Positions 34,993 to 43,413 of a stretch of DNA of 64,000 bases are shown here, in pieces; position 1 is the stretch's first letter; the number at the start of each line of letters is the position of its first letter. The notes below the pieces were generated by a model. The model was not told the DNA's origin, did no database searches, and was given only the letters and a program-made list of their open reading frames with translations. Source of the stretch: Achromobacter insuavis (lineage in GTDB: Bacteria > Pseudomonadota > Gammaproteobacteria > Burkholderiales > Burkholderiaceae_B); NCBI RefSeq assembly GCF_902859645.1, contig NZ_CADIJR010000009.1, forward strand, positions 62,001 through 126,000. Direction: 5' to 3'. A program made the position numbers and the translations under genes.

Positions 34993-35058
34993 CGACGTTC
35001 CATCAGGGTGACGGCAAAGTGCCTACCGTTGTATCGCAGTTGTGCGATTCACGCACAC

Positions 35059-35823
35059 TCAGAACCAGTACTTCGCCGCATAGATCACGGTCATGACGGC
35101 GCCCGTGACAATGACGAACCCCCGGACTGCCGAAGCGGGCAGGACACGTATCAAGTGGCCGCCCAGATAGCCGCCCGCCAGCGCGCCGGCCAGCATGCAG
35201 AGCGTGGCGGGCCAATGGACCGAGCCCTGCGCGATAAAGATGACGATCGCCGCGGCGGTGACAAACGTGGCCAGCAGGTTCTTCAGCGACTTGATGGCGC
35301 GCAGGTTTCCGGGATCCGTGATTGAAATCACCGCGGTCAGGATCACGCCCAGCCCGGCGCCAAAAAAACCCCCATACACGGAGGCCAGTGTGATCGGCAG
35401 CACGCCGCGCGCGCGACTCTCCTGCGCTTGGCCGCCGCGCCGGCGCGCGCTCCAGGCCTGCACCTGAGGCGCAAAGGCAAACAGCAAGGTGGCGAATGCG
35501 ATCAGGGCCGGCACGGGCAGGATGAAATAGGCGGGCGGGATGGCAAGCAGGATGAAGGCGCCCAGCGCGCCGCCCGCGGTGGCGGCGATCGACAGCAGCC
35601 AGAAACGCCGATCGGGAGCGGGCAGATTCTCGCGATCGGCCAGCGCCGCCAGGATATGGCCGGGCGATATGGCTACCGCGCTGGAGGCATTGGCGATGAC
35701 GGGCGGCAGGCCCGCCGCCACCATCGCGGGAAAAGTAATCAGTGTGGCGCCGCCCGCCAGCGCATTGATGACGCCGCCTAACGCGCCCGCGCCGGCCAGC
35801 AGTGCCGCCATGCTCCACTCCAT
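35059..35823 (-). CDS. TauE/SafE (TSUP) family permease
   Basis: A 254-residue membrane protein with seven or eight helices. The repeated motifs GALGGVINALAGGATLITFPAMVAAGLPPVIANASSAVAISPG and GGFFGAGLGVILTAVISI are diagnostic of the family, which carries small anions such as sulfite, sulfoacetate or other C2 acids across the membrane. ATG 35823 has AAGG 7 bases upstream; GTG 35829 is an alternative. It is divergent from the N-oxygenase cluster, and one of two matching palindromes sits 31 bases upstream, so it may export that cluster's product. Confidence 0.85.
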   Translation of the reverse strand: MEWSMAALLAGAGALGGVINALAGGATLITFPAMVAAGLPPVIANASSAVAISPGHILAALADRENLPAPDRRFWLLSIAATAGGALGAFILLAIPPAYFILPVPALIAFATLLFAFAPQVQAWSARRRGGQAQESRARGVLPITLASVYGGFFGAGLGVILTAVISITDPGNLRAIKSLKNLLATFVTAAAIVIFIAQGSVHWPATLCMLAGALAGGYLGGHLIRVLPASAVRGFVIVTGAVMTVIYAAKYWF

Positions 35824-35853
35824 ACCCACACCTTTTTGGTTAAGCGGAATAAT

Positions 35854-35870
35854 GGTCCATATATTGGACC
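35854..35870. promoter_or_regulatory. Operator-like palindrome, copy 1
   Basis: GGTCCA-TATAT-TGGACC is a perfect 17-base palindrome 31 bases upstream of the TauE/SafE start codon. It shares arms and spacing with copy 2 at 35960-35976. Confidence 0.7.
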
Positions 35871-35959
35871 TTTATATTGGGCCTATATATCGGACGAAAT
35901 TTATTATTGCCTATTTTCTGCGTGGGTATAGAATGCTCGAAAATAAAAGAATAAATAAT

Positions 35960-35976
35960 GGTCCATTATATGGACT
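35960..35976. promoter_or_regulatory. Operator-like palindrome, copy 2
   Basis: GGTCCA-TTATA-TGGACT matches copy 1 in both arms except the last base and has the same 5-base spacer. It lies 198 bases upstream of the first gene of the N-oxygenase cluster. Two copies between divergent genes suggest one regulator controls both directions. Confidence 0.65.
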
Positions 35977-36173
35977 TCAAAAAAACTCCGGCGACGCCTT
36001 TTAGCCGCCCCGCAAGATCGCTGTCAACTCCCAGGATGGCGCATGCGGCCGGATCTCCCTCGGTTTTGCGTGCCCCATCCTGATCGCTGGTTTCCAACCC
36101 CGTCCCCGGGGTTGTTGCGTGTTCACCTGTCTGGCCCGTCGGGCCATCACCGCTGAATCAGGAGGGAATATCG

Positions 36174-37163
36174 ATGGATGTGAGCTTCATGGCGTTTTCC
36201 CGGTTGGCGTTCGGGCATTGGGAGGGGCAGCCCTTGTATGCCTTGGCCGACCTGGGGATTGCCCAGCGTTTGTCCGAACCCCGCACATGCGCCGAGCTGG
36301 CGCTGGAACTCGGTTGCGAATCCGAGCCGCTGGAACGCCTGCTGGACTGCGCGGTCGCGCAAAAACTCCTGACGGGCGACGGCGGGCGCTACGCCAATAC
36401 CGATCTCAGTGCGCGCTTTCTCACCGAGGACAGTCCCGAATCCCTGTTGTGCTGGCTCCGCGTCATGGCGCGCTGGAAGCAGCCCTGGGCGCAACTGGCC
36501 GAGGCGGTGCGGCGCGGCGAGGCGGTGGACAACCAGTCCAAGTGGCTGGGCGAAGACCCCCAGTTCATGCGTGACTTTATCCTGGGCATGCATCAGTTCG
36601 CGTCCCGTTCGGGACCTGCATTTGCCGAGGCATTGAAAGCGGCGCCCATTCGCCATCTGGTGGATGTCGGCGGGGGCGCAGGCACGTATTCCATTGCCTT
36701 GTGCGCGGCGCGGCCCGAGGTGACCGCACTGGTTCTGGATCTGGCGCCGGTGGTCGAGATCACGCGCGAAACCGTGCGCGCGGCCGGCCTGGCGGACCGC
36801 GTGAGCGCCAAGGTGGCCGATTATCGGCAAGACGGTTTCGGCGAGGGCGCCGACGCACTGCTCTTTTCCAACGTGCTGCATCAGGAGAGCGCGCCGGTGT
36901 GCCGATCGATGCTGGACCGCGCCAGGCAGGCATTGCGTCCGGGCGGGACATTGCTGGTGCAGGGCTACTTCCTTGCCGAGGACCGGCGCGCGCCGCTGTT
37001 CACCACCTTGCACAACCTGTCCGCGCTGGCGCTTTGGGACGGCGGGCGCAGTTGGACGGTGGGCGACATGCAGGCGCAGATCGCGGCGGCCGGGTTTGAG
37101 CGCCAAGCCGTGCTGCGCCAGGAAAGCAGCGGGTTCTGCCTGCTGTCGGCCGTCAAGGTCTGA
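36174..37163 (+). CDS. O-methyltransferase (COMT/hydroxyneurosporene type), natural-product cluster
   Basis: A 329-residue protein. The N-terminal winged-helix dimerisation domain (about residues 1-110) is followed by a SAM-binding domain with LVDVGGGAGTYSIALCAARPEVTALVLDL and LLFSNVLHQES..LRPGGTLLVQGYFL, the pattern of plant-like and polyketide O-methyltransferases (PF00891 type). It is the first gene of the compact cluster 36174-41050. A likely role is late methylation of a carboxylate, hydroxamate or N-oxide oxygen. The start has AGGAGGGA upstream. The substrate is unknown. Confidence 0.82.
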   Translation: MDVSFMAFSRLAFGHWEGQPLYALADLGIAQRLSEPRTCAELALELGCESEPLERLLDCAVAQKLLTGDGGRYANTDLSARFLTEDSPESLLCWLRVMARWKQPWAQLAEAVRRGEAVDNQSKWLGEDPQFMRDFILGMHQFASRSGPAFAEALKAAPIRHLVDVGGGAGTYSIALCAARPEVTALVLDLAPVVEITRETVRAAGLADRVSAKVADYRQDGFGEGADALLFSNVLHQESAPVCRSMLDRARQALRPGGTLLVQGYFLAEDRRAPLFTTLHNLSALALWDGGRSWTVGDMQAQIAAAGFERQAVLRQESSGFCLLSAVKV

Positions 37164-37194
37164 CCCGTTATCCACCTATTGAACCGGAGCCTAT

Positions 37195-37443
37195 ATGTCC
37201 ACACAGACCGTCACCGATACCGAAGCCGAAGTGATCGCCTGGCTGAAGGAAAACCGCGATGCGCAGGTCGAAGGCATCAAAGAGAAGAACCTGATCGAAG
37301 AGCGCATCCTGGACAGCATGCAGTTCCTGGACTTCATCATGTTCCTGGGCGAACTGGTGGGGCGCGATGTCTCGACCGCTATCACCGTCGACGACCTGCG
37401 CACGGTGGATGCCATCGTCAATTTCGTCCAGGTACAGCGCTAG
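37195..37443 (+). CDS. Stand-alone acyl carrier protein
   Basis: An 82-residue acidic helical protein with the phosphopantetheine site ERILDSMQFLDF; Ser41 is the predicted attachment residue. It is a free-standing carrier protein, not part of a fatty-acid operon: no fab genes are nearby, while an amino acid:carrier protein ligase (39385) and a phosphopantetheinyl transferase (40529) are. It most likely carries an aminoacyl group through the N-oxidation steps. The start has CGGAG 6 bases upstream. Confidence 0.85.
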   Translation: MSTQTVTDTEAEVIAWLKENRDAQVEGIKEKNLIEERILDSMQFLDFIMFLGELVGRDVSTAITVDDLRTVDAIVNFVQVQR

Positions 37444-37461
37444 CCCGAGAAGGAAGGCATC

Positions 37462-38355
37462 ATGACATTCGACTACTCAAGAATCGGCCGCCTGATGACG
37501 CTATCCAAAGGGCGTTCGCACGATCCCTACGAGCGTTTTGAGTGGCCCGCCCATATTCCGGATGACCAGCCCTGGTGCAGCAATGACTTGCTCACCACCT
37601 ACGGAACGCCTTTGCAGGAGCAATTGGACGCCGCGCAGCGGATACGGCTCAGCAAATGGGAGGCGGTCAATTTTTTCAGCCTCAACGTGCACGGCATCAA
37701 AGGGGTGCTGAGCTTTGTCAGCCGCTGCATCTATGAAGAGCGCTATGCCGATGTATCCGAATACCTGCATGTCTTCATGGGCGAAGAGAACTTCCATATG
37801 TGGTATTTCGCCAAAGCCTGTCTCGATTATGCGGGAAAGATATACCCGTCGATTCAGTTGCAGGGCGATGCGCAGGCGCCCACGCCAGAGTTGGACGACC
37901 TGTACATGTTCGCCAGCACGCTGATCTTTGAAGAGTTCGTCGACTACTACAACCATAAGGTCGGCACCACGGACGGCATTACCGAGATCCTCAAGCAGAT
38001 CAACTACCAGCATCATGTGGACGAGTCTCGCCACGTGTCCTTCGGCCGGGAAATGGTGCCGCGCCTGTACCAGATGGCGCTGGAGCGCGGGGGCGATCCT
38101 GACGCGACGCGCGCGGAGGTGGCGCGCACGGTGACGAATATGTTCCGCTACTTCATCAGCCTGATGTACAACCCGGCCGTCTATGACGATGCCAAAGTCT
38201 ACGAGCCGCTGGGATTTCGCAACGGCAACGCCATGCGCAACGCGCTGCGGTCGCATCCGGCGCGCAAGGCCGTCCACGAGCAATGGTTCAAGCGTAGCGC
38301 CGCCTACTTCACCAAACAGGGGCTGGTGACGGACTTGAATCTGGCCGCGCTATAG
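37462..38355 (+). CDS. AurF-type diiron N-oxygenase
   Basis: A 297-residue protein of the p-aminobenzoate N-oxygenase (AurF/CmlI) family, which oxidises an amine through hydroxylamine and nitroso to nitro with a diiron centre and O2. Ligands are visible: Glu109-x-x-His112 (GEENFHMW), Glu157/158 (IFEEFVDYYNH), and His184-x3-Glu188-x2-His191 (HHVDESRH). The first Glu is probably Glu67. The start has AAGGAAGG 5 bases upstream. Neighbouring carrier-protein genes suggest a carrier-bound aminoacyl substrate rather than a free arylamine. No aromatic precursor genes are present. Confidence 0.82.
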   Translation: MTFDYSRIGRLMTLSKGRSHDPYERFEWPAHIPDDQPWCSNDLLTTYGTPLQEQLDAAQRIRLSKWEAVNFFSLNVHGIKGVLSFVSRCIYEERYADVSEYLHVFMGEENFHMWYFAKACLDYAGKIYPSIQLQGDAQAPTPELDDLYMFASTLIFEEFVDYYNHKVGTTDGITEILKQINYQHHVDESRHVSFGREMVPRLYQMALERGGDPDATRAEVARTVTNMFRYFISLMYNPAVYDDAKVYEPLGFRNGNAMRNALRSHPARKAVHEQWFKRSAAYFTKQGLVTDLNLAAL

Positions 38356-38369
38356 GGCGGAGGCACACC

Positions 38370-39326
38370 ATGGCGCAGATTGCCAGCAGTTCCGAGGTGA
38401 AAGCGTTTTTCGGCGCGCGCTTGCCCATCCTGCAGGCCGGCATGGGCGGCGTGGCGCAGCCGGAATTGGCGGCCGCCGTGTGCGAGGCGGGCGCGTTCGG
38501 AATGATTGGCCTGTATCGCCACACGCTGGACGAGATCGGCCTGTTGCTTGCGCAGACCGCCGCGCTGACCGGGGCGCGCTTTGGCGTGAACCTGGTGCCC
38601 TTCGTGCTGGACGCGGACGCGCTGCTGGAGCGGTTGGCCTTTTTGGCGGACTGTCCGGAGCGGCCGATCGTGACCTTCTTCGGTCTGCCCGGCGCCCCCG
38701 TGCTGCGGGCCTTGCCGGCCGGGATGGAGTATGGCGTGCAAGCGGGGACCTGGGACGAGCTGCAAGCGGCGTTCGATGCCGGCGCGCGCTTTGGCGTGTT
38801 GCAGACGACGGAGGCGGGCGGCCATCACCTGGGTTCGACCGCGCGCGCGCAGGCGCTGGACCAGGCTGCCCGCCATGATGTCGACAAGAGCATGGTGTTC
38901 ATCAGCGGCGGCATCAGTAACCCGGTGGAGTTGCGCCAGGTGATGCAGGCCGGATTTTCCGGCGTCCTGTGCGGCACGGTATTCGCGGCAACCCGGGAGT
39001 CCGCCGCGCACGAGCGCTACAAGCAGGCAATCGTGAACGCCACGCCCGGCGATACCGTGGTCACCGACCGCTTCAGCGTGGGGTGGCATACCCATCGCCA
39101 CCGGGTCATCCGCAATGCCAGCTGCAAGGAATCGCTGCCGGCGAGCGTCATCGGCTCCGCGAATTACTTTGGAAAGCGTTATCCCATTTTGCGTTACAGC
39201 GTTGCGGTACCCACCGTCCACACCGAGGGTCTGATCGAGGACATGGCGTTGTATTGCGGAACGTCCTGCAAGGACACGCATTCCATCCGAACCGTGCGCC
39301 AGGTGCTGGCTGACTTGACGGCGTAA
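38370..39326 (+). CDS. Nitronate monooxygenase/2-nitropropane dioxygenase-family FMN protein
   Basis: A 318-residue TIM-barrel flavoprotein with N-terminal PILQAGMGGVAQPELAAAVCEAGAFG, the conserved TTEAGGHHLGS segment holding the likely catalytic His, and VFISGGISNPVELRQVMQAGFSGVLCGTVFAAT for FMN phosphate binding. The family includes nitronate monooxygenases, which oxidise nitronates to carbonyl plus nitrite, and FabK-like enoyl reductases. Sitting directly after an amine-to-nitro oxygenase, a role on a nitro/nitronate intermediate or in self-protection is attractive. A reductase role cannot be excluded. Confidence 0.8.
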   Translation: MAQIASSSEVKAFFGARLPILQAGMGGVAQPELAAAVCEAGAFGMIGLYRHTLDEIGLLLAQTAALTGARFGVNLVPFVLDADALLERLAFLADCPERPIVTFFGLPGAPVLRALPAGMEYGVQAGTWDELQAAFDAGARFGVLQTTEAGGHHLGSTARAQALDQAARHDVDKSMVFISGGISNPVELRQVMQAGFSGVLCGTVFAATRESAAHERYKQAIVNATPGDTVVTDRFSVGWHTHRHRVIRNASCKESLPASVIGSANYFGKRYPILRYSVAVPTVHTEGLIEDMALYCGTSCKDTHSIRTVRQVLADLTA

Positions 39327-39384
39327 GGCGGGGTCGTGTCCGCATTCTTCTAAGTGCTTTCAGGGATTTTCAGGAGATTCTGTC

Positions 39385-40170
39385 GTGATCATCGAAAAGC
39401 AATGGCATCAGGTAAAGAACGTGCTGCAGGGCAAACTCGACGACATATTCTCGATTGCGCCCGACGCCACCACGGAGTTCGACAGCTTGCTGGCCCATGA
39501 AGAGATCAATGCGCTGGGCTATGTGCGCAATTTCCCGCACCTGACCTGCGTCATGTGCTCGATAGAAGAGGGGGAGCTGCTGGGGTTCGCGCGCGGCCAG
39601 CGCAAGCTGGACCAGGATTTCAAGGCGCTGTCCGCCGACGTGGCCTTGTTGCCGGCGACCTGCTACAAGGTCTACCTGGGGCTGCAAGGACAGCATCTGG
39701 AAGGCGCGCGGGTGGAATCCTGCATCGCGCGCTGCTTCCGGCACGAGGACAAGGCGCTGGATCGTTACCGTGCCTTCAACTTCACCATGAAGGAATACGT
39801 GTACCTGGGCACGGCGGAGGGCGCGCAGGCGCACCTGGAAGCCGGTTATGACCGCCTGTTCTCCCTGTTCGCGCAACTGGGAATCCGCGCGGGTTGTGAA
39901 GAAGCCAACGATCCCTTCTTTGATTCAGGCAGCGCCGTGGCGCGCCTGTCGGCGCTGACGCCCACCAAGCGCGAACTGGTGTTCGACGGCCACGCCGTGT
40001 CGTCGCTGAACTATCACCGCAACTACTTTGGTGAAAAGTTCGATATCCGCCTGGCCGGCAACTTCGTGCACACCAGTTGTGTCGCGTTCGGCTTGGAGCG
40101 CTGGATCTCCATGTTCAAGGATCGTTTCGGCAATGCGGCGCAGGCGCTCGCCGCGCTGGAGCGCGCCTAG
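39385..40170 (+). CDS. Amino acid:[carrier protein] ligase, truncated atypical seryl-tRNA-synthetase-like
   Basis: A 261-residue class II synthetase catalytic core without a tRNA-binding domain, as in the amino acid:carrier protein ligases of Bradyrhizobium and Agrobacterium. These activate glycine or alanine with ATP and transfer it to the phosphopantetheine of a small carrier protein. Three zinc ligands of atypical SerRS can be placed: Cys93 (LLPATCYKVY), Glu137 (NFTMKEYV) and Cys232 (VHTSCVAFGLERW). Motif 2 is CFRHED...R and motif 3 is FGLERW. The GTG start has CAGGAG upstream. It would load the carrier protein at 37195; the amino acid is not predictable by eye. Confidence 0.8.
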   Translation: MIIEKQWHQVKNVLQGKLDDIFSIAPDATTEFDSLLAHEEINALGYVRNFPHLTCVMCSIEEGELLGFARGQRKLDQDFKALSADVALLPATCYKVYLGLQGQHLEGARVESCIARCFRHEDKALDRYRAFNFTMKEYVYLGTAEGAQAHLEAGYDRLFSLFAQLGIRAGCEEANDPFFDSGSAVARLSALTPTKRELVFDGHAVSSLNYHRNYFGEKFDIRLAGNFVHTSCVAFGLERWISMFKDRFGNAAQALAALERA

Positions 40171-40554
40171 ATGGGGCATCCGACCGTACAGGCGCAGGCA
40201 TTGTTCCAGACAGGCCAGCAGTTCCAGAAAACCTGGGTGGTCGATGCCGCCGCCAGCGCATTGAGCTATGGCGGAGATCTGGATGTGCTGGCCACCCCGG
40301 TGATTGTCTATTGGATCGAGTCTTATGCGACGGAGTGCATCCGGCTGGCGGGCGACGGGCGTTGCGGGTCGGTCGGGCATGCGGTCAGTGTGCGGCACGT
40401 GGCGCCCGCGCATCCGGGTAGCGCGGTGCGGCTGACGATCACGGTAGAGGCCATGTTCGGCAATTCCCTGCGGTTCAGCGCGCGCGCCGTGGCGGGCGAG
40501 GCCGACACCCTGATCGCGACCGGCTCGCATGACCGTACCCTCGTCGAACTTTGA
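40171..40554 (+). CDS. FlK-type hotdog thioesterase
   Basis: A 127-residue hotdog-fold protein. Thr42, Glu50 and His76 fall at exactly the positions of the catalytic triad of fluoroacetyl-CoA thioesterase FlK (ATPVIVYWIES and VSVRHVAP), and VAGEADTLIATGSHDRTLV matches the family C-terminus. FlK hydrolyses thioesters activated by an electron-withdrawing alpha substituent. Here it may release an alpha-N-oxygenated acyl group from the carrier protein. The ATG directly follows the preceding stop, and it overlaps the next gene by 26 bases, indicating tight coupling. Confidence 0.8.
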   Translation: MGHPTVQAQALFQTGQQFQKTWVVDAAASALSYGGDLDVLATPVIVYWIESYATECIRLAGDGRCGSVGHAVSVRHVAPAHPGSAVRLTITVEAMFGNSLRFSARAVAGEADTLIATGSHDRTLVEL

Positions 40555-41050
40555 CGTCACGGTGATGTTGGGCGCTCTGGACCCCGCGCTGTCCGGGCGG
40601 GCCAGGCGCACACGGTTGGGCAAGCCGTACCTTCCCGGTCTTGCTGGTTTCGGCGTGAGCGACAGTGCCGGCACGCAGGCGCGGCTATACGCCAATCGCA
40701 AGTACGTGGGCATTGACATCGAGCATCTGGACCGGCCCGATCTGGCCGCCCGCCAACACCGTCTGGCGGCCTGGCTGGCGCGGCGGGACCTCGTCGTCGT
40801 GGATTTCCTGGCCGGCTGGGTCGCCCGCGAGGCTTGCGCGAAAAGCGTGGGGCTGGGGCTGCTGCATGCGCTGCCGCGCCTGTCCATCACCTGGGCGCGA
40901 CCGCTCGATCAGGGCGGGGCGCAAGAGATCGGCCTGGTATTTGGCCGCTGGAGATTCGTCGCGCGGTGCGAGCGGGTCGGCAGGGTGCTGCTATGCGTGT
41001 GTTACCGGCAGGAGTATGGCAAGCCGCGCATCTCCTTGCTGCGGCCTTGA
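40529..41050 (+). CDS. 4'-phosphopantetheinyl transferase superfamily protein
   Basis: A 173-residue protein with the two hallmark motifs: YVGIDIEHL (the G-x-D-x-E magnesium site) and FLAGWVAREACAKSVGLGL (W-x-x-x-E-A-x-x-K). It is shorter than Sfp-type enzymes, having a reduced N-terminal half. It should convert the cluster's apo carrier protein at 37195 to the holo form using CoA. It is the last gene of the cluster; its end is 136 bases from tRNA-Ala. Confidence 0.85.
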   Translation: MTVPSSNFDVTVMLGALDPALSGRARRTRLGKPYLPGLAGFGVSDSAGTQARLYANRKYVGIDIEHLDRPDLAARQHRLAAWLARRDLVVVDFLAGWVAREACAKSVGLGLLHALPRLSITWARPLDQGGAQEIGLVFGRWRFVARCERVGRVLLCVCYRQEYGKPRISLLRP

Positions 41051-41076
41051 ATCCATGGGCCGATCCGCCGCAAAAC

Positions 41077-41138
41077 CAAACAAAACAGCGCCAAACAAAA
41101 CAGCGCCAAACAAAAACAGCGCCAAACAAAAACAGCGC
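41077..41138. repeat. Four tandem 15/16-base repeats next to tRNA-Ala
   Basis: The unit CAAACAAAACAGCGC occurs twice (41077-41106) and CAAACAAAAACAGCGC twice (41107-41138). The last unit is the left half of the tRNA terminator hairpin. Read on the minus strand each unit is a GCGCTG half followed by a T-run, like serial copies of a terminator tail. Confidence 0.8.
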
Positions 41139-41151
41139 CCTAAGGCGCTGT
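41132..41151 (-). terminator. Rho-independent terminator of tRNA-Ala
   Basis: ACAGCGCC-CTAA-GGCGCTGT forms a perfect 8-base-pair stem. On the minus strand it is followed by TTTTGTTTG, so it terminates the tRNA transcript. On the plus strand no T-run follows. Confidence 0.8.
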
Positions 41152-41186
41152 CTTGGACTTACTCCAGATTTCGCTGGAGCTTGAAT

Positions 41187-41262
<76 letters not shown>

Positions 41263-42364: not shown

Positions 42365-42676
42365 CTAGGCCGGATGTTCGGCCTGGACGACCAGGCGTAC
42401 GCCCAGTGCCTTGCATACCTTGGCGATGGTGTCAAAGCGCGGGCTGGCGCCGGCACGCAGGGCCTTGTACAGGGATTCCCGGCCAATACCGGCGGTCTCG
42501 GCAATTTGCGTCATGCCGCGAGCGCGCGCGGCAACTCCCAGCGCCTGGGCAAGCTCATCGAAGTCTCCGTCCTCGATCACCTGCGTCAAGTAGGCGGCGA
42601 TGTCCTTGTCGTCGCGCAGGTAACGCGCAGGGTCGAAGGTGGGCAGTTCGGAAACCTTGATCGTCTTCTTGCTCAT
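42365..42676 (-). CDS. Antitoxin, HTH type (HI1420-like addiction module antidote)
   Basis: A 103-residue DNA-binding protein. The N-terminal part (FDPARYLRDDKDIAAYLTQVIEDGDFDELAQALG) and the HTH (RGMTQIAETAGIGRESLYKALRAGASPRFDTIAKVCKALGVRL) match the HI1420/TIGR02684 antidote family. It should bind and neutralise the toxin encoded just upstream and repress the pair. The 4-base overlap with the toxin gene shows translational coupling; the toxin comes first, as in HigBA-like systems. Confidence 0.88.
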   Translation of the reverse strand: MSKKTIKVSELPTFDPARYLRDDKDIAAYLTQVIEDGDFDELAQALGVAARARGMTQIAETAGIGRESLYKALRAGASPRFDTIAKVCKALGVRLVVQAEHPA

Positions 42677-42987
42677 GATTGGTCTTCCTCGTCGTTTCTC
42701 AGGGCCCGCGCCAATTCCTTCGCGTGCTTGACGTCACGGCGTTGTGTGGTCTTTGTGCCGCCGCCCAGCATGACGATCAGCACGTCGCCCTGCTCGATGT
42801 AATACATGCGCCAGCCAGGGCCAAAGAACTCGCGCATCTCGCTCACGCCCTCTCCGACCGGTTTCACATCGCCCAGCAAACCTCGCGCGGCCTTTTCAAG
42901 CCTGCGGATCAGGCGGGCTCGCGTAGCTGGGTCTGTCAGGCTGTCGAACCAAGCGTCGAACGCTGGCAGCGGCTTTATGTGGTACAT
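42673..42987 (-). CDS. RelE/HigB-like toxin (HI1419-like)
   Basis: A 104-residue toxin of the RelE/ParE superfamily: FDAWFDSLTDPATRARLIRRLEKAARGLLGDVKPVGEGVSEMREFFGPGWRMYYIEQGDVLIVMLGGGTKTTQRRDVKHAKELAR is typical of the Gp49/HI1419 group, which usually cleaves mRNA on the ribosome. The start MYHIKPLP at 42987 is chosen from the family N-terminus. It is part of a small module with the antitoxin, beside a large helicase gene. Confidence 0.88.
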   Translation of the reverse strand: MYHIKPLPAFDAWFDSLTDPATRARLIRRLEKAARGLLGDVKPVGEGVSEMREFFGPGWRMYYIEQGDVLIVMLGGGTKTTQRRDVKHAKELARALRNDEEDQS

Positions 42988-43413
42988 GATTAGTGTATTC
43001 GATCGGATACTTTCTCGGCAAGCGGATCGGCGACGTGATGCCGGTGCGTGACGTATGCAACATGCTCGCGGGTGGTGCCCGGATGCGTCGTGTGCCACTC
43101 GAAGGCGCGGCGCATGAGCGGGCTGGGGCGTTGAACCTTCGGGCGATTAGTGTCGTGCCAGCAGTCTAGCAAGGGGGGGCAGGAGGGCTTGGCGAGTCGA
43201 CCCTTCGTTGTGTCCGAAACTACGGGAAACGTCGAGGGGTAGCGCTTCACGCATGGTTCACTGCTTTCTGCAATCTGTGTGAACCAAAAGTGCGTTCAAT
43301 CCGAACCGGAAAGTCATCGCGTTCGTATAAATTATTATCAATTTGTATAATTTTCAAAACGCCAATATCCGACCCCAATCGGAAGTTCCGCAGTCCTGAA
43401 AGAGAACAAAACA
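42988..43413. other. 426-base region between toxin and helicase genes
   Basis: It contains a doubtful 86-codon frame on the minus strand (42990-43250), an inverted repeat GGTTCAC...GTGAACC (43255-43261 and 43279-43285), and an AT-rich stretch 43322-43363. The TATAAT in that stretch is a good -10 element for the helicase gene. Confidence 0.5.
42990..43250 (-). CDS. Doubtful small hypothetical protein
   Basis: An 86-residue frame upstream of the toxin gene on the same strand, ending 2 bases before it. The C-terminal part (RRAFEWHTTHPGTTREHVAYVTHRHHVADPLAEKV) has a protein-like composition, but no family is recognised and the start has no clear ribosome site. It could be a remnant of a degraded gene. 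Confidence 0.3.
   Translation of the reverse strand: MKRYPSTFPVVSDTTKGRLAKPSCPPLLDCWHDTNRPKVQRPSPLMRRAFEWHTTHPGTTREHVAYVTHRHHVADPLAEKVSDRIH

Follow-up and report, generated by a model that had tools for sequence, protein, structure and literature searches.

Seven open reading frames follow one another on the forward strand at 36174–41050 of the 64,000-nucleotide stretch of Achromobacter insuavis DNA analysed here (hereafter the window), with intergenic gaps of 31, 18, 14, 58, 0, and -26 bp, and a divergent gene for a TauE/SafE family permease lies on their upstream side (Table 1). In a relative without the cluster (L283, genome G002), the counterparts of window positions 35056 and 41186 are only 76 bp apart, which indicates that everything between them is a single insert beside a tRNA-Ala gene, with its right edge 1 bp short of that gene. 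The GC content of the insert is 63%, compared with 71% in the left flank and 69% in the right. Queries for an adenylation domain (A-domain), an NRPS module, KSIII, an AMP-ligase, and a thioester reductase, all five taken from related loci, gave no tblastn match at E 1e-3 in the 64 kb window. The preliminary description of this locus had reported the unidirectional seven-gene run and no NRPS or PKS module, the first of which is borne out and the second of which agrees with this search; the seven genes it listed are correct, but the list was incomplete, as it overlooked the divergent permease gene.

Table 1 Features of the locus, in window coordinates
Feature	Position	Strand	Evidence
Acquired unit, TauE plus seven genes	35057..41185		Empty site in L283 (genome G002), GC shift
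TauE/SafE family permease, probable exporter	35059..35829	-	PF01925 2.4e-34
O-methyltransferase (OMT; Methyltransf_2)	36174..37163	+	PF00891 5.8e-25; PF08100 2.8e-10
Lone acyl carrier protein (ACP), Ser41	37195..37443	+	Weak NCBIfam ACP matches
AurF-type diiron N-oxygenase	37462..38355	+	PF11583 4.6e-27
Nitronate monooxygenase-like (NMO-like) flavoprotein	38370..39326	+	PF03060 2.1e-27
SerRS-like amino acid:[carrier protein] ligase, GTG start	39385..40170	+	NCBIfam PRK07080 4.6e-34
FlK-type hotdog thioesterase	40171..40554	+	PF22636 3.5e-19
4'-phosphopantetheinyl transferase (PPTase)	40529..41050	+	PF01648 7.8e-5
tRNA-Ala (cgc), right end of insert	41187..41262	-	ARAGORN

Protein families and key residues

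The carrier protein matched no Pfam family at E 0.1, and its NCBIfam ACP/DltC matches (3.5e-4 and 2.2e-3) are far under cut-off; the position aligned to Ser41 is nevertheless Ser in 148 of 148 carriers adjoining an AurF gene. The diiron protein scored 95.3 bits against PF11583 (cut-off 29.6) and carries the motif HHVDESRH at residues 184–191. Its ligands E109, H112, E157, H184, E188, and H191 are kept in aligned relatives, and the first Glu ligand was taken as E67 by conservation only. The seventh His, here H184, is called characteristic of this kind of N-oxygenase in the available part of PMC13061610. The nearest folds, of the ferritin-like type, are the N-oxygenases CmlI and AurF at a structural identity of ~15%, while by sequence profile R2 (E 7e-4) and R2lox (0.0017) rank above AurF, the weakest of the three (0.054).

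The NMO-like protein scored 96.8 bits against PF03060 (cut-off 28), and the His of its GGH motif, H152, is invariant in 5/5 proteins; FabK-type reductases are its top PDB matches, with an NCBIfam FabK score of 70.4 bits, far under the cut-off of 453. The ligase scored 117.8 bits, short of the equivalog cut-off of 357, suggesting that it is kin to PRK07080 rather than the same equivalog. Its PDB matches are 4h2w and 3mey (~2e-21; profile E 8.8e-39 for 3mey), and its Zn residues are nearly invariant in aligned relatives (Cys93 in 148/148, Glu137 in 148/148, and Cys232 in 147/148); two ligase positions separate the partner classes described below, both weakly. The thioesterase (69.3 bits, cut-off 27) has T42, E50, and H76, which we take to be the Thr/Glu/His triad of FlK; Glu and His are present in 5/5 sequences and Thr in 4/5, with Ser in Tistrella. 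The PPTase, at 23.1 bits, is slightly under the PF01648 cut-off of 25. The carrier serine, the diiron motif, and the three Zn ligands had all been named in the preliminary description, and the alignments agree with it on each.

Conservation of the gene block and its partner genes

The seven-gene block is syntenic in four other genomes of the genus (69–98% identity) and in Variovorax sp. N23 (39–68% identity), and judged by this synteny the arrangement exceeds chance. A tblastn search of the best 80 ligase loci for the full set (OMT, ACP, AurF, NMO, ligase, FlK, and PPTase) recovered three Achromobacter loci and Variovorax only, with partial sets elsewhere, and we therefore rejected the full set as a general cluster among these loci. 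A FlK-type thioesterase is found with the cassette in Achromobacter, Variovorax, Agrobacterium vitis, and Tistrella. The A. vitis block keeps the remaining genes in the same order, but the OMT was not found at this locus and an IS6 transposase gene sits in its expected place, suggesting possible loss or relocation of the OMT. In Variovorax the cassette is followed by an AMP-binding enzyme, a desaturase-family protein, and a carbamoyltransferase, and this locus may thus not be free-standing. The ligase query also matched 52 of 72,556 plasmid records, and 3 of the 15 regions listed were examined.

The permease follows the same distribution as the cluster. A TauE/SafE gene (E<=1e-60) occurs in 5 of 150 relatives, exactly the five that have the cluster, and it lies inside the single insert, which together place it in the set; this co-occurrence and the empty site also rule it out as a mere chromosomal neighbour. 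It adjoins the cluster in Variovorax (65%) and A. vitis (34%) as well, and in a Ramlibacter MAG a 41% homolog lies 7 kb from AurF. The protein is probably an exporter.

We then placed the locus within a census of 154 loci, consisting of 100 AurF-seeded loci (24 from Micromonosporaceae and 76 from Streptomyces, being 24 of 33 and 76 of 87 high-score matches listed) together with loci found via the ligase. The seeded scans scored only some candidates per genome, and counts are therefore lower bounds. Loci L017, L018, and L020 were excluded as copies of L010–L012, and at least three duplicate contig pairs remain (L154/L056, L155/L090, and L167/L082), all of the KSIII type. Partners were counted within 8 kb using HMMs, each based on 2 to 8 sequences, at thresholds of our own choosing, such that the counts can miss divergent FlK, TauE, and ACP genes and partners on short contigs. 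Custom gene callers were used for part of the gene calls, and some labels come from reading translations or from weak matches (PPT and AMP-ligase in L121, P450 in L015, and a condensation gene in L168).

The ligase was found within 8 kb in 95 of the 100 AurF-seeded loci of this clade versus 0 of 20 control loci of other AurF genes (one family, two of the loci cut by contig ends), which argues on comparative grounds that AurF, ligase, and ACP form a genuine module. The preliminary description had proposed this co-occurrence search, with inconsistent co-conservation to count against its reading, and the co-conservation proved consistent. Across all 154 loci, ligase and ACP were each present in 148, with the ligase on the AurF strand in 147 of 148 at a median gap of 275 bp. 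Four of the six loci without a ligase (L119 among them) have an A-domain nearby instead, as expected if the job of the ligase is loading. Motif-anchored residues of the L119 A-domain name no substrate.

Other partners follow simple rules. NMO occurs in 28/154 loci and an LCM-type methyltransferase in 49/154, yet never both together; OMT occurs in 13/154, always with NMO (13/13), while no OMT lies within 8 kb in 15 of the 28 loci that have NMO. Merging at 80% AurF identity left 79 groups (76 with ligase, 10 with NMO, 15 with LCM, none with NMO and LCM, and 8 with OMT, all with NMO), and merging at 60% left 25, two of which contain both NMO loci and LCM loci but never at the same locus. This mutual exclusion mirrors a fork between denitrification and O-methylation described in the available parts of PMC11035981 and PMC9967187. 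Sequence comparison suggests that the OMT itself is an optional branch. Its candidacy as an essential part is weakened by its absence from the A. vitis locus, though an IS6 element adjoins that block. A tree of 66 rows recovered two main groups (44 and 22 rows) at 100/100, with several inner forks open and L014 and L053 on long branches; the type labels of many rows predate the census.

Predicted pathway and relation to described systems

Based on gene content and comparison, we lean, with a probability somewhat better than even, towards reading the locus as a stand-alone cassette that oxidises the nitrogen of an amino acid on its carrier and does so without an NRPS. In this scheme the PPTase would convert the carrier to holo-ACP and the SerRS-like ligase, with ATP, would load glycine or possibly alanine. 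The diiron enzyme, by analogy with the published glycine-nitronate pathway, would then oxidise the carrier-bound alpha-amine to a nitro/nitronate acyl-ACP, and the NMO-like flavoenzyme would cleave the nitronate, the likeliest products being glyoxylyl-ACP and nitrite. The FlK-type thioesterase is predicted to hydrolyse a short electron-poor acyl-ACP and free the carrier, and the permease to export a small anion; the OMT, where present as here, may divert part of the oxidised intermediate to an O-methylated product. The outline of the preliminary description (loading of a small amino acid, N-oxidation, release, and perhaps methylation) thus holds on comparative evidence, corrected by the eighth gene and by the OMT being the least fixed member. 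In weighing the cassette reading we counted against it the R2/R2lox preference of the diiron profile and the low structural identity to AurF/CmlI, the FabK-type reductases within the NMO family and at the top of its PDB ranking, and the loading of akazaoxime glycine by an NRPS (available part of PMC9967187).

Three other readings assign the same genes differently. It is unlikely, in our estimation, that the cluster mainly makes an O-methyl nitronate of the enteromycin kind, with the OMT methylating the carrier-bound nitronate, FlK releasing it, TauE exporting it, and the NMO-like enzyme only disposing of toxic unmethylated nitronate: nitronate O-methylation is published (PMC9967187, available part) and the OMT stands first in the operon in both Achromobacter and Variovorax, but over half of the NMO loci, and the A. 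vitis locus, have no OMT, and the LCM family looks like a dedicated methylation branch. The strict pairing of OMT with NMO is hard to square with a nitronate that simply meets one of two competing fates and agrees well with a sequential route, in which the diiron and NMO/FabK-like enzymes would stop the nitrogen at an oxime, the OMT would form a methoxyimino acyl-ACP, and FlK would free a methoxyimino acid. The FabK-type PDB matches agree with such a route, as does the AurF-like enzyme and methyltransferase proposed to act on an oxime in althiomycin (PMC3445576, in part); we still regard it as quite improbable, as NMO-dependent denitrification is cited for such nitronates (PMC11035981, in part) and NMO without OMT is common. 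Very improbable is oxidation of carbon by the diiron enzyme, or of a substrate other than glycine or alanine, to a hydroxylated or other amino acid that is not N-oxidised, although the R2 and R2lox profile scores, and another ligase-ACP pair that adjoins a P450-like gene (L015), are consistent with it.

The preliminary description knew of no cluster with exactly this set. A search over titles and abstract openings of open-licence PMC papers likewise found none described, but the chemistry has a close precedent in glycine-derived nitronates (enteromycin carboxamide; He & Ryan 2021, as described in citing papers), which are O-methylated or denitrified (PMC9967187 and PMC11035981, in the parts available). 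Those pathways, as far as these sources describe them, resemble the predicted route in using a carrier-bound amino acid and a diiron oxygenase, and in giving a nitronate whose fate is either O-methylation or denitrification by a nitronate monooxygenase. Among the genomes of the AurF-seeded scans, no locus was recognised as the enteromycin cluster. The window differs in having a SerRS-like ligase and a lone ACP, in uniting methyltransferase and NMO in one operon, and in having its own thioesterase, PPTase, and permease; an NRPS loading and extending glycine, which marks the enteromycin/akazaoxime type, was not found in it at E 1e-3. By analogy, the cluster may work like one of that type without being one. 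What looks new is that the cassette does without an NRPS and has a thioesterase and a probable exporter of its own, together with how widely it occurs and the rules its partners follow, set apart from the He & Ryan 2021 system by the descriptions in citing papers only.

More tentatively, and with a likelihood we place below even, AurF, lone ACP, and SerRS-like ligase may be a pan-bacterial NRPS-free plug-in for oxidising amino acid nitrogen on a carrier. Its free-standing form (here, similarly in A. vitis and Tistrella, and perhaps in Variovorax) would be dedicated to turning the nitrogen of glycine into nitrite for export, an organic nitrification, and, where the methyltransferase is present, would also yield a two-carbon acid, O-methylated and so far undescribed. 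Should nitrite be the end product, Achromobacter and plant-associated bacteria would have a genetically defined path to it from an amino acid. Through the census, a ligase family that has been little studied becomes linked to a single clade of diiron oxygenases, the partner rules (NMO and LCM never at the same locus, OMT only with NMO) predict denitrifying versus methylating clusters, and the window offers a minimal eight-gene system in which to rebuild carrier-bound N-oxidation, nitronate fate, and product release without a megasynthase.

Parts of the cassette also resemble other systems. In the available text of PMC11659414, HamC and PvfB (valdiazen and fragin) are AurF-related N-oxygenases acting on a tethered amino acid, there valine; unlike the window, the substrate is NRPS-bound, the products are diazeniumdiolates, and that text mentions no SerRS-like ligase. 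Althiomycin Alb2/Alb3 similarly pair an AurF-like N-oxygenase with an O-methyltransferase on a carrier-bound amine, but tailor an NRPS-PKS intermediate (PMC3445576, in part). The Bradyrhizobium amino acid:[carrier protein] ligases (PDB 3mey and 4h2w) share the SerRS-like core, the Zn residues, and an adjoining carrier, whereas in the available part of PMC2922099 their group is linked to a Rossmann-fold oxidoreductase and sugar genes rather than to AurF.

Insertion and composition of the gene block

Family searches and ORF coordinates confirmed that all seven genes of the predicted carrier-bound N-oxygenation cluster are real, lie on one strand and are closely spaced, with successive intergenic gaps of 31, 18, 14, 58, 0 and -26 bp. 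They encode a Methyltransf_2 O-methyltransferase (OMT), an acyl carrier protein (ACP; weak NCBIfam matches only), AurF, a nitronate monooxygenase-like flavoprotein (NMO), a SerRS-like amino acid:[carrier protein] ligase, an FlK-type thioesterase and a phosphopantetheinyl transferase (PPTase; match a little under the Pfam cut-off). The preliminary interpretation held in outline, but its gene set missed an eighth gene, TauE/SafE, and the proposed chemistry has a known precedent.

Of 150 relatives, five had TauE/SafE at E ≤ 1e-60, and these are the same five that hold the cluster. In genome G002 (locus L283), where this site is without the cluster, matches to window positions 35056 and 41186 lie only 76 bp apart, which delimits the acquired unit; its GC content is 63%, against 71% and 69% in the left and right flanks. 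G015 and G040 carry the block in the same chromosomal place as the window; in G037 and G007 TauE is kept with the block, and the window's left-hand neighbours were not detected within the 18 kb examined.

Coordinates of features in the window and in loci (L) from relative genomes (G); LCM, a second methyltransferase family
Feature	Location	Strand	Remark
TauE/SafE gene	window 35059-35829	-	divergent from seven-gene operon
Acquired unit	window 35057-41185		adjoins tRNA-Ala
Putative toxin-antitoxin pair	window 42365-42993		outside cluster; antidote PF21716, weak Gp49-like partner
Divergent AurF-ACP-ligase trio	L014 7840-10748		then enoyl-CoA hydratase family gene; second copy in G007
Ligase and ACP without AurF	L015 8495-9528		G043
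AurF with stand-alone A-domain	L119 8927-13987		G049, same family
LCM-methyltransferase module	L206 4766-12455		Streptomyces

Linkage of ligase and AurF

A ligase profile run on named genomes gave 441 relatives; of the best 80 loci, 48 had an AurF gene beside the ligase. As this ligase-seeded sample is biased, searches were begun from AurF in 350 genomes of Micromonosporaceae (family of G154) and 392 of Streptomyces (genus of G155). Among the Micromonosporaceae matches listed, a high-score group (33 matches at 289-385 bits) stood apart from a low-score group at ≤121 bits. With both searches pooled, the ligase was ≤8 kb away in 95 of 100 fetched high-score loci, whereas the same models found no ligase, ACP, NMO, OMT or LCM gene in any of 20 fetched low-score loci, bearing out the co-conservation of ligase and diiron oxygenase expected at the outset.

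Across 154 AurF loci (the 100 AurF-seeded and others found through the ligase), the loading gene was the ligase in 148, an A-domain in its stead in 4 and neither in 2; ACP was present in 148. The ligase shares the AurF strand in 147 of 148 loci, at a median gap of 275 bp. Alignments showed near-invariant ligase Zn residues, ACP serine and most diiron ligands across relatives. Families, fold, conserved residues and gene linkage are established. At AurF residue 79, 100 of the 154 aligned rows have Ile and the other 54 have Glu, a division that looks like one between two AurF clades.

Proposed chemistry and partner genes

Glycine-derived nitronate chemistry, whose original study is reportedly that of He & Ryan in 2021, is the closest published precedent for the chemistry proposed for the cluster. 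In two accounts, a diiron oxygenase converts carrier-bound glycine to a nitronate, which is then O-methylated or denitrified by nitronate monooxygenase (PMC9967187, PMC11035981). We infer every reaction step of the cassette, and the window operon contains candidate genes for both nitronate fates. FlK enzymes prefer a two-carbon acyl group bearing an electron-withdrawing alpha substituent, which agrees with a product made from glycine; the window protein has T42, E50 and H76.

NMO was found in 28 of 154 loci and an LCM-type methyltransferase in 49, never together; OMT occurred in 13, every one with NMO. Merging at 80% AurF identity kept this pattern (79 groups: NMO 10, LCM 15, both 0; OMT 8, all with NMO). 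At 60%, 2 of 25 groups hold NMO loci and LCM loci, never within one locus, so relatedness is only partly removed from these counts. Since 15 of the 28 NMO loci lack OMT within 8 kb, and none was seen in 18.7 kb around the Agrobacterium vitis F2/5 cassette, NMO cleavage would be the core step and methylation a side branch. An IS6 element adjoins the A. vitis block and may account for the absence there. A sequential oxime route would also account for OMT never being seen without NMO. From its sequence, the NMO-like protein may instead be a FabK-type reductase. Also counted against the glycine-nitronate reading, the L119 A-domain that replaces the ligase gave no clear substrate from its residues; ACP, LCM-type methyltransferase and KSIII-type genes lie downstream of it.

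Cassettes and related arrangements in other genomes

An FlK-type thioesterase gene goes with the cassette in Achromobacter (five genomes), in Variovorax N23 and on the A. vitis F2/5 plasmid, where the order is ACP-AurF-NMO-ligase-FlK-PPTase-TauE (33-52% identity). The same holds for Tistrella mobilis pTM2, whose order is AurF-ACP-ligase-NMO-OMT; there FlK and an MFS gene lie immediately upstream on the opposite strand. In Variovorax N23 the cassette is followed by genes for an AMP-binding enzyme, a desaturase-family protein and a carbamoyltransferase. A Ramlibacter MAG has TauE, ACP, AurF, ligase, NMO and OMT alongside an NRPS module, and the gene after the cassette in L159 encodes a condensation-domain protein; set against the self-standing loci, one and the same module seems to supply an assembly line in some cases and to work alone in others.

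KSIII and/or reductase genes were present in 52 of 154 loci. A larger cluster (L016, L025-L053 and others, in many phyla) runs KSIII-AurF-ACP-ligase-NAD-binding (thioester) reductase-PPTase-ferritin-like protein-second ACP, and an ICMT-type methyltransferase and an AMP-ligase are frequent additions; we know of no product for this cluster. G007 combines the L014 trio with a window-type cluster. The L015 neighbours, labelled by reading translations, are P450-like and AMP-ligase-like genes. The L206 module lies beside a SAM synthetase and a Cys/Met-metabolism PLP enzyme, as if with an in-built methyl supply.
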